Part shown: in pieces, positions 287 to 36,086 of the stretch
Position numbering within the stretch: position 1 is the first letter of the stretch
How the letters are laid out: every line of letters starts with the position of its first letter
DNA from: Myxococcota bacterium
GTDB lineage: Bacteria > Myxococcota_A > Polyangia > Polyangiales > Houyiibacteriaceae
NCBI GenBank assembly: GCA_028284955.1
Contig: JANQQS010000201.1
Span: 1-64,000 of the forward strand
Length of the DNA: 64,000 nt
Direction of reading: 5' to 3'
The notes under the pieces: model-generated
Database searches by the model: none
What the model saw: only the letters and a program-made list of their open reading frames with translations
What the model was told of the DNA's origin: nothing
Translations under genes and position numbers: made by a program

Positions 287-423
287 GAGCAATGGTCAGT
301 ATGGCTGATCGAAATCCCTCAGAGGAAAGACATTCCGCGAACTACCCGGAAACCAGGTTACATGCCTCCTGGCGGAGGAGTTTGATTGATTGCAGCTCAA
401 GGTGCATCCCCATAGAGCAGTGG
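287..423. repeat. dispersed mosaic repeat, copy A
   Basis: The segment 287-383 matches 21270-21365 with scattered substitutions. The following segment 388-423 (containing GCTCAAGGTGCATCCC and TAGAGCAGTGG) matches 21232-21280. The two blocks occur in opposite order at the two loci, so this is a mosaic family rather than a simple duplication. No reading frame is conserved between copies. The core containing CCTCCTGGCGG also recurs, inverted, in the 35.7-35.9 kb array. Confidence 0.7.
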
Positions 424-21091: not shown

Positions 21092-21590
21092 AGGGCGTAC
21101 CGCAGCCGAACCTGGCCGCGGCGCGTATCATTCAATTCGGGCCACCTATGAGCAAGTCGAATACCGTCATCTTCCCCTGCGGCGAGGTACGAGTCTAAGT
21201 CTCGTCTATGACAATGACCGAATTGGTTGATTACAGCTCAAGGTGCATCCCGTAGACTATTCTAGACTAGAGCAGTGGTCAGTATGGCTGATCGAATCTC
21301 TCAACAGGAAGACATCCCGCGAACTCCCCGGCAACCAGGTCACGTGCCTCCTGGCGGGGGAGTTTGGGTGAATGGCTGGGATCGTATCCCAGCCAGAGGG
21401 TCTGGGTGCCAGACCCTCAAAAAACACAGCTGGGTGAATCGGCGGGGTCGTACCCCGGCGAGAGGGTCTGAGTGTCAGACCCTCAAAAACACAGCTGGGT
21501 GAATGGCTGGGATCGTATCCCAGCCAGAGGGTCTGGGTGCCAGACCCTGAAACGACGGTCCAGCTTGGGTGAATTGACCTGGTCCTTGTC
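21092..21590. repeat. 499-bp intergenic region holding dispersed and structured repeats (locus B)
   Basis: This is the divergent gap between the membrane activator and ptsN. 21092-21227 shows nothing recognisable apart from possible promoter DNA. 21228-21365 holds mosaic repeat copy B, matching 287-423 in a different block order. 21366-21549 holds three tandem copies of a ~65-bp double-hairpin unit. A partial copy (GGGTGAATTGACCTGG) at about 21567-21582 precedes the ptsN start. No gene is supported here. Confidence 0.85.
21366..21549 (+). ncRNA. three tandem copies of a structured double-hairpin repeat
   Basis: Units begin at 21366, 21432 and 21497 with GGGTGAAT. Each has hairpin 1 (GGCTGGGAT-CGT-ATCCCAGCC) and hairpin 2 (GAGGGTCTGG-GTG-CCAGACCCTC). 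The first two units then end with an A-rich CAAAAA(A)CACAGCT; the third is followed by a different sequence (GAAACGACGG). In unit 2, hairpin 1 changes at three pairs with compensation (and one G/G mismatch), and hairpin 2 changes a G-C pair to A-T. Such paired changes indicate selection or replication of the fold. Whether it is transcribed, and from which strand, is not known. Confidence 0.5.
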
Positions 21591-22058
21591 ATGGGGTATG
21601 CGCCGGCCGTGCAGCTTGGCGACATTCTCGCGGTCGATCGGGTTACGACGTCGCTTGACGGTCGGGACAAGGAAGAGGTGCTGCGCGCGATGGCGGGGCT
21701 TTTTGCCAAAACCGAGCGGCATCTCGACGAAGAGGCCGTGTTTCGCGTCCTGTCCGAGCGCGAGGCGCTCGCGAGTACGGGCATTGGGAGCGGCGTTGCG
21801 ATTCCTCATGGGCGCATCGCGGGCATCGATCAGATGATTGCTGCGCTCGGGGTGCACAACGCTGGCGTGCCTTTCGACGCGGTAGACGGGAAGCCTGCAC
21901 ACATTTTCGTCGCCGTGTTGGCTCCCGATGAGCGTCCCGGCGACCATCTCCATGCGCTGGCGCAGATCAGTCGTTTGCTACGAAGCGAAACAACACGCCA
22001 GCGACTGGTCGACGCGCGCGACGCCGAGTCAGCGAGAGCGCTTGTCGCCGGAGCTTGA
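21591..22058 (+). CDS. ptsN: PTS EIIA-type (PtsN-like) regulatory protein
   Basis: The 155-aa protein matches the nitrogen/fructose EIIA fold, with the phosphorylated His in 'GSGVAIPHGRI' (about residue 69) and the family pattern 'EEAVFRVLSEREALASTGIG'. Without sugar-transport EIIB/C partners here it is likely a regulatory phosphocarrier, as PtsN usually is. HprK is encoded about 1 kb downstream, while HPr and EI are not in this window. Its 3' end overlaps the convergent hydrolase gene by 30 bp. The start ATG has only a weak ribosome site. Confidence 0.88.
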   Translation: MGYAPAVQLGDILAVDRVTTSLDGRDKEEVLRAMAGLFAKTERHLDEEAVFRVLSEREALASTGIGSGVAIPHGRIAGIDQMIAALGVHNAGVPFDAVDGKPAHIFVAVLAPDERPGDHLHALAQISRLLRSETTRQRLVDARDAESARALVAGA

Positions 22059-35426: not shown

Positions 35427-35603
35427 ATGCCGATCTGCAAAATGTGTGACGATGAAGTGGATGAACTCGAATCGGTAAAAATCCATGGCAAGCGAATGAA
35501 GCTCTGCGAAGACTGCGCTGACCGCGCGCGCGAAGAAGCGGAAATCGCTGAGATGAGTGAATCGGTGGTCCAAGACATGATGGGCTTCAAAGGCCGACGC
35601 TGA
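35427..35603 (+). CDS. small zinc-ribbon-like protein
   Basis: A 58-aa protein with two CxxC pairs ('CKMCDDEVDEL' and 'LCEDCADRA'), a classic treble-clef/zinc-ribbon spacing, followed by an acidic helix and a 'GFKGRR' tail. ATG 35427 follows GGGGGAC. It lies 86 bp after the kinase stop on the same strand and may be co-transcribed. The function is unknown; such small zinc proteins often bind nucleic acid or a protein partner. Confidence 0.7.
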   Translation: MPICKMCDDEVDELESVKIHGKRMKLCEDCADRAREEAEIAEMSESVVQDMMGFKGRR

Positions 35604-36086
35604 TTATTTTAGGGTCTGGCACCCAGACCCTGTGTTTTTTGAGGGTCTGGCACCCAGACCCTCTGGCTGGGATACGACCCCAGCCATTCACCCAAGCTCC
35701 CCCGCCAGGAAACACGTGACATGGTTTGCGTGGCGTGTACTGCTGGGGCCCCGTCGCATAGCGATGGGGCGGACGCGACAGCGGCCGGAGTTGGGAGGGG
35801 GACCCGGGCGGGTCGTACCCGCACGGGGGAGGGTTTGCTTCAAACCCTCCAGAAAACACAGCTCCCCCGCCAGGAACCACGTGACCTGGTTGCGTGGCGT
35901 GTAGTGCTGGGGCCCCGTCGCGTAGCGATGGGGCGGACGCGACAGCGGCCGGAGTTGGGAGGGGGACCCGGGCGGATCGTACCCGCACGGGGGAGGGTTT
36001 GCTTCAAACCCTCCGAACAACACAGTCGGGAGAGGGACCCGGGCGGGTCGTACCCGCACGGGGGAGGGTTTGCTTCAAACCCTCCA
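35604..36086. repeat. structured-repeat array, locus C
   Basis: This non-coding stretch holds three kinds of repeat. At 35610-35695 there is a minus-strand copy of the locus B double-hairpin unit, with an extra hairpin 2. At 35696-35850 and 35861-36014 two almost identical ~155-bp direct repeats (period 165 bp) each include the CCTGGCGGGGG core, a CCCC/GGGG hairpin and a double hairpin. At about 36030-36086 there is a third double hairpin. In these, hairpin 2 is GGAGGGTTTG-CTT-CAAACCCTCC, the same 10-bp stem and 3-nt loop as locus B with different bases. Reading frames through it are not conserved. Confidence 0.85.

Follow-up and report, generated by a model that had tools for sequence, protein, structure and literature searches.

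A Dispersed, Probably REP/REPIN-Like Double-Hairpin Repeat with a Conserved Fold in Myxococcota

The double-hairpin units described here are probably palindromic repeats of a REP/REPIN-like kind, a non-autonomous family which would spread as a folded single strand. This reading, drawn from sequence comparison, is favored with some reserve because the repeat is dispersed and high in copy number, forms both tandem arrays and outward-facing inverted composites, differs in its occupancy of orthologous sites, keeps its fold across genera, and carries a tail that lies at stop codons. A REP/BIME-like family was one of several options raised in the initial annotation, and among these it is the one with the best fit. 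Such a family would extend REP-like biology to Myxococcota, with stems that are rewritten pair by pair while the plan of head, tail and hairpins stays fixed. It would also provide a natural data set for what the enzyme of a mobile palindrome recognizes.

Architecture of the Repeat Unit

The window, which is the whole stretch of 64,000 nucleotides analyzed, belongs to an assembly of 6.07 Mb in 223 contigs and holds the repeat in a tandem array and at a second site at 35.6–36.1 kb (Table 1). Two sub-types, T1 and T2, are distinguished. Each of the three T1 units of the array consists of GGGTGAAT, hairpin 1 (9-bp stem, loop CGT), a single A as spacer, and hairpin 2 (10-bp stem, loop GTG); the units follow one another at a spacing of 66 and 65 nt, and units 1 and 2 continue into CAAAAA(A)CACAGCT. 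The units, their triloops and the A-rich runs are thus all present in the sequence, as the initial annotation had described them. The comparison of unit 1 with unit 2 also confirms the base changes it had listed. Hairpin 1 differs by three double changes (A-T to G-C, T-A to C-G and G-C to C-G) and by one further pair, in which C-G becomes G.G, and hairpin 2 differs by one compensated pair, G-C to A-T. Folding of the window units with DNA parameters gives z = −7.2 to −7.6, with 0 of 200 shuffles folding equally well, and folding as RNA gives z = −5.1 to −6.0.

Table 1. Repeat units and associated features in the window
Feature	Position	Strand	Evidence or remark
Truncated MITE-like carrier copy without double hairpin	287–392	+	
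End CTAGAGCAGTGGTCAG of longer MITE-like carrier	21267–21282	+	sequence
Palindromic module 5′ of the units, GAACTCCCC...CACGTG...GGGGGAGTT	21321–21364	+	sequence, flank profiles
Unit 1, sub-type T1	21366–21418	+	sequence; R1 model 83.6 bits; fold
Unit 1, GGGTGAAT; hairpin 1, loop CGT; spacer A	21374–21382/21386–21394 (hairpin 1)		
Unit 1, hairpin 2, loop GTG	21396–21405/21409–21418		
A-rich tail of unit 1, AAAAAACACAGC	21419–21430	+	sequence
Unit 2, sub-type T1	21432–21484	+	sequence, R1 model, fold
A-rich tail of unit 2	21485–21495	+	sequence
Unit 3, sub-type T1	21497–21549	+	sequence, R1 model, fold
Solitary hairpin 2	35611–35631	−	7 nt past stop codon TGA (35601–35603)
T1 unit, one end of outward-facing inverted composite	35641–35693	−	R1 model
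Composite core, further hairpin modules (GGGGCCCCGTCGC..., CGGCCG...)	35694–35801		
T2 unit, opposite end of composite	35802–35849	+	R2 model 75.3 bits
T2 unit, second copy	35966–36013	+	R2 model
T2 unit, third copy	36037–36084	+	R2 model

The units share a general plan: GGGTGAAK, then hairpin 1, a spacer of 1 nt, hairpin 2 (GAGGG...CCCT) and an A-rich tail. The profiles of three genera each show, on the 3′ side of hairpin 2, 9–12 A-rich nucleotides, after which the A-richness stops. A closing stem between the left flank and the tail, an idea that came from GCTGCTT/AAGCAGC in one array of locus L226, was not borne out when single copies were inspected by eye. On the other side of the unit, the 3′ arm GGCGGGGGAGYTY of the upstream palindromic module stands immediately 5′ of GGGTGAA in most copies of this genome and also in another genus, g9.

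The initial annotation had placed related copies at the second site. They prove to be one T1 unit, an extra hairpin 2 and three T2 units. The solitary hairpin 2 lies beside the full T1 unit and appears to be a partial duplication of one hairpin. Among the loci fetched from this genome, 35 outward-facing inverted T1/T2 pairs were found, 29 of them with a core of 114–118 nt; the inverted units at regular spacing that characterize BIMEs and REPINs are therefore present. The gaps between tandem T1 units are mostly 13–16 or 27–28 nt, and the window array is of the 13–16 kind.

Distribution within and between Genomes

A strict sequence pattern finds 219 copies in the 6.07-Mb genome, and the reversed-pattern control finds 0. 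The T1 covariance model matches all 150 scored candidates. BLAST gives 55 matches among its scored candidates with the region of the tandem array as query and 62 with the 35.6–36.1 kb region. Many copies coincide with contig ends of the assembly, which is expected because repeats of this kind interrupt assembly. About 100 loci were fetched, and they yielded 116 distinct T1 units and 55 distinct T2 units; only one of the 117 T1 copies examined lies inside a called gene. The repeat is thus a short imperfect palindrome, extragenic and present in more than 100 copies in this genome, as in the definition of REPs, while other genomes hold at most 37 copies.

Rfam covariance models gave 0 matches in the window and none, up to E = 1, on the units of the loci L183, L184, L193, L204, L225 and L226; the plasmid and phage collections likewise gave no match to the repeat. 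No description of it was found in Rfam or in the open-licence literature, and within these sources the initial statement that this is not a described element holds.

Among 58 genomes, this one included, the R1 model finds matches in three others, all of the same family: R4_Bin_MAXBIN__061_1 (G002), Deltaproteobacteria bacterium HCUG1432-5 (G008) and Myxococcales bacterium UBA1660 (G015). The last two are species of one genus, g9. A sample of 379 genomes of the phylum adds one more with matches, G035, from another family of the same order, and a scan of species genomes adds Sandaracinaceae bacterium MED-G138, Zod_Metabat.937, Zod_Metabat.807 and Myxococcota MAG-130. Several other Myxococcota hold up to 37 copies, and most sampled genomes, including most of the family, have no match; the copy numbers outside this genome and the taxonomic range are lower bounds, as the pattern was tuned on the first copies seen. 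Most of the genomes with the repeat are metagenome assemblies. The search of this genome and of Myxococcota proposed at the outset, carried out with the covariance model and the sequence pattern, has thus returned more than 200 further copies here and matches in other genera.

In all these genomes GGGTGAAK, the foot GAGGG...CCCT and the order of the parts are constant, and hairpin 1 is rewritten. It reads CGAGGAGGC-CTA-GCCGACGAG in g9, CGCC-GAA-GGCG in G002 and GCCGTCGGGG-TCT-CCCCGACGGC in Zod_Metabat.937.

Occupancy differs between the two species of g9. Copy L082 of G008 occupies a junction between genes, and the corresponding junction of G015 has no unit; the tandem pair L081 of G015 is missing from the counterpart site of G008. 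The unoccupied sites carry other, diverged intergenic sequence in which neither clean insertion ends nor a target duplication is visible, and for these differences loss is as possible as gain.

Beyond the phylum, single matches of one copy per genome occur in Marinobacter, Hydromonas and an acidobacterium. They may be convergent; about 30 chance matches to the pattern are estimated for the whole collection. The single copies of Marinobacter similis (L193, 3052–3091), M. persicus (L204) and Hydromonas duriensis (L183, 4685–4729) follow the same plan of AAATACCTGCGGGGTGAAT, hairpin 1 and AGAGGGGCTGGCGAAGCCCCT, and these Marinobacter and Hydromonas copies resemble each other beyond the search pattern. 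The M. similis copy stands about 16 nt past the stop codon of an opposite-strand ORF.

Covariation and Conservation of the Fold

In 87 distinct T1 sequences the pairs of hairpin 1 are nearly all standard, though several positions carry two to four types of pair. For covariation, T1 and T2 were aligned separately. Among 28 distinct T1 sequences, both partners have changed in seven pairs. The alignment has a covariation score of 0.207, compared to 0.102 in shuffled alignments (0 of 500 reaching the real value) and 0.019–0.063 when the partner is slid. The T2 score is 0.229 versus 0.095 in shuffles. Covariation therefore remains strong with more copies aligned. The exception is the seventh pair of hairpin 1, which is most often G.A.

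A further comparison exchanges hairpin-1 arms among units that have the same length. The real arms pair better in 2000 of 2000 shuffles in each of four sets, from this genome, G002, g9 and Zod_Metabat.937; the copies of MAG-130 were too few for this. The search pattern leaves the pairing of hairpin 1 free, so arm pairing across genera constitutes an independent test. Hairpin 2 of the pattern-found copies is partly constrained by the pattern, and its free inner pairs co-vary (GGTCTG/CAGACC, GGTTTG/CAAACC, GGGTTG/CAACCC, GGGCTG/CAGCCC). The initial suggestion that paired changes reflect a selected fold is supported by the further copies, including those of genera in which unrelated hairpin-1 letters still pair, and selection would thus keep the fold while the letters change.

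The correction of quasi-palindromes is a known mutational process. Selection would not be needed if the palindromes corrected themselves by template switching, or if gene conversion between copies altered both arms together. Alleles do recur among the copies, and at the site L146/L149, which is occupied in both G008 and G015, the two units are three compensatory double changes apart, paired changes that could have come from exchange of alleles with other copies. Such an origin of the compensatory changes is nevertheless highly improbable. The G.A that recurs in the lower half of hairpin 1 persists in several genera, where self-correction should remove it, and the constant triloops, the 1-nt spacer and GGGTGAA would be left unexplained.

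Strand Asymmetry of the Hairpins

The mismatches of hairpin 1 are distributed unequally between the strands. Read on the GGGTGAA strand, the distinct stems of three genera contain 34 G.A or A.G and one T.C or C.T mismatch, a count that comes from related alleles and may go back to five or six independent events. Stable G.A pairs can occur in folded nucleic acid, both DNA and RNA, and on the opposite strand they would be T.C. Neutral change would produce about equal numbers of the two, so the GGGTGAA strand is probably the one recognized when folded. This strand is antisense to the abutting gene. The predicted RNA energy is stronger on the plus strand in 111 of 116 units of this genome and in 17 of 19 units of g9, but in only 9 of 30 units of G002. 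As an indication from sequence, the strand bias favors recognition of one DNA strand in folded form, or of an antisense RNA, over an element of the mRNA.

Among the units of g9 and MAG-130 (e.g., L082 1500–1552 and L177), those of g9 carry tandem G.A/A.G mismatches in hairpin 1, within CGAGGAGGC/GCCGACGAG. In the units of G035 (L173) there is an irregular zone with AA opposite GC, which are the letters of the E. coli REP bulge (PMC8266576). The TnpA-REP enzymes bind folded single-stranded REPs in a strand-specific way, and in the REPs of E. coli a conserved mismatch is required (PMC8266576).

Position at Gene Ends

The position of the units was read against gene boundaries from the simple codon-usage gene caller of this analysis, with a proximity cut-off of 60 nt. 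The hairpin-2 side lies within this distance of a called boundary in 50 of 117 T1 copies, of which 49 face a stop codon and one a start codon, with a median distance of 12 nt. The single start-facing case is the window array, in which unit 3 is turned toward the start codon of a PtsN-like gene (ORF 21591–22058). The T2 units stand at four stops versus no starts. In G002, the hairpin-2 side is found at 20 stops versus two starts, with a median of 10 nt. The GGGTGAA side is within 60 nt of a gene boundary in 0 copies of this genome or G002. The intergenic gaps of the same loci in this genome have 128 stop and 108 start boundaries, so the make-up of the gaps does not account for the excess of stops. 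About ten copies have the stop codon read within the element, at its edge. For g9 the caller gave two stops versus nine starts, and these counts were left out after they had been seen, since the g9 calls, with their many overlapping ORFs, are distrusted; several of the loci were hand-read as stops.

This arrangement raises the possibility that the units act in cis as RNA elements at mRNA 3′ ends, where they would block 3′–5′ exonucleases, slow ribosomes or mark the end of the transcript. The stop bias, the short median distances and the fixed orientation of the units are in favor of it, and PMC12306157, citing earlier work, states that E. coli REPs less than 16 nt from a stop codon can lower translation. 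Such a role is unlikely. The G.A mismatches are carried by the antisense strand of the gene, the array of the window is turned toward a start codon, and the L082 copy lies between an apparent sdhC stop and sdhA start, in an apparent operon (names read off the translated ends). Inverted composites and tandem arrays, the occupancy differences between sister species and the lack of units in most genomes of the bacterial family also speak against it. An mRNA 3′-end structure had been one of the initially proposed options; its position, with most copies directly past stops, agrees with this proposal, whereas the antisense G.A strand does not. The options of a leader or a conventional non-coding RNA find no support. 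An intrinsic terminator was rejected as a candidate: the A-rich tail is on one strand and ATTCACCC on the other, and no U-run stands 3′ of the hairpins in the gene sense.

Under the preferred REP/REPIN-like reading, a putative strand-specific DNA-processing enzyme would recognize the folded GGGTGAA strand by its hairpins and G.A irregularities, cut beside it and spread the repeat. Copies would persist chiefly at places where an insertion does no harm, shortly beyond the ends of genes, and in the orientation in which the T-rich antisense tail offers stop codons. The pairing would be kept because copies that do not fold would stop spreading. Taken alone, the selective removal of misplaced copies leaves the 49:1 orientation bias unexplained; an RNA function could explain it. 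The bias toward stop codons is stronger than expected from harmlessness alone, and a gene-end role of REP-like repeats becomes testable.

Relation to MITE-Like Carriers

Some units are part of a longer, MITE-like carrier. About 40 matches to its 5′ part are found, and carrier copies other than that of the window array have the inverted end CTGACCACTGCTCTAG 3′ of hairpin 2. In G035 and MED-G138 the double hairpin lies inside near-identical, CTAG-bounded elements of 185 bp with several hairpins (e.g., L173 1425–1609 and L233 1425–1609), which likely spread recently. The double hairpins could accordingly be passive modules of ordinary MITEs, in which a DDE transposase would mobilize the CTAG-bounded carriers, with the double hairpin as cargo or as a subterminal binding site, both in the CTAGAGCAGTGGTCAG...CTGACCACTGCTCTAG carriers of this genome and in the 185-bp elements of Sandaracinaceae. 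The inverted ends around some copies, the matches to the carrier and the near-identical 185-bp elements agree with this view. It is improbable, as many T1 units at the loci read stand in other contexts, the inspected copies of G002 and g9 have no CTAG ends, and it is the double hairpin, not the carrier, that several genera have in common. Of the features of MITEs, inverted ends occur on some carriers only, the flanks are diverged, and neither a partner transposase nor another autonomous partner was found.

Another short repeat, CAGCTCAAGGTGCATCCC..., occurs at 382–410 and about 21228–21256 of the window. It adjoins GAGCAGTGGAATTTTGGTCTGAGC at several loci and represents a second dispersed family nested with the double-hairpin family.

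Comparison with Known Repeat Families

Cyanobacterial small dispersed repeats are very small nested palindromes that are reported to show compensatory changes. The REP/BIME elements of enterobacteria and pseudomonads (PMC2817692, PMC8266576) resemble the family in being short imperfect extragenic palindromes whose copies number in the hundreds, in forming mosaics from inverted units, in the mismatches that mark one strand and in the many copies soon past stops. The present units differ in having two adjacent hairpins each, GGGTGAAK in place of GTAG, an A-rich tail, a near-absolute orientation to stop codons and no linked RAYT. REPINs (PMC3116915) are likewise repeated composites of two inverted palindromic units and a spacer, like the T1/T2 pairs with their core of 114–118 nt, but a T1/T2 composite has a double hairpin at either end, and these belong to sub-types that have diverged. 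The repeats tagged with GTAG or CGTC are also palindromes, and their REP ends give stop codons to neighboring ORFs in some cases (PMC3733652, whose text has no mention of Sorangium, Haliangium or Anaeromyxobacter). Here neither tag is present in the left and right flank profiles, and all genera have GGGTGAAK as their constant foot.

Double hairpins are known from other families as well. EFA-1 and Pae-1 are bacterial stem-loop repeats with a predicted double hairpin, likened here by description (PMC2267715, a text in which Myxococcota are not mentioned). The double-hairpin elements of fungal mitochondria and the hairpin elements of sponge mitochondria, likened by description only and as far as the available text of PMC2800124 presents them, show tandem insertion and complementary substitutions, but they belong to organelle DNA and have no constant 5′ motif or A-rich tail.

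Alternatively, the repeat may form a class of its own among small mobile elements. It would be a strand-specific double hairpin, with GGGTGAAK as a constant head and a 3′ tail rich in A, which a non-RAYT enzyme inserts at stops in one orientation. This is rather unlikely. If true, the signal transmitted would lie in the fold rather than in the sequence, and if spread possibly went via an RNA copy, the repeat would be a bacterial SINE-like element.

The search for a REP-type partner gives one Y1/RAYT-like gene in this genome (L075 1432–2340, contig C158; NF047646 73.6 bits, cut-off 80), with no units beside it. G002 has no Y1_Tnp match despite its 30 copies, and 33 of 58 relatives have Y1_Tnp, irrespective of whether they carry the repeat. 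A link to RAYT was rejected on these grounds, the sole RAYT-like gene being without units and the distribution of Y1_Tnp independent of the repeat. The likeness to REPs in the folded strand with its mismatches and in the stop codons at element edges supports a REP-like way of working. Because there is no GTAG/CGTC tag and no linked RAYT, the family is not filed as REP and is called REP/REPIN-like, with a new architecture. A hairpin-like sequence, GGTGGCTGGCACC, lies about 250 nt downstream of the RAYT-like gene.
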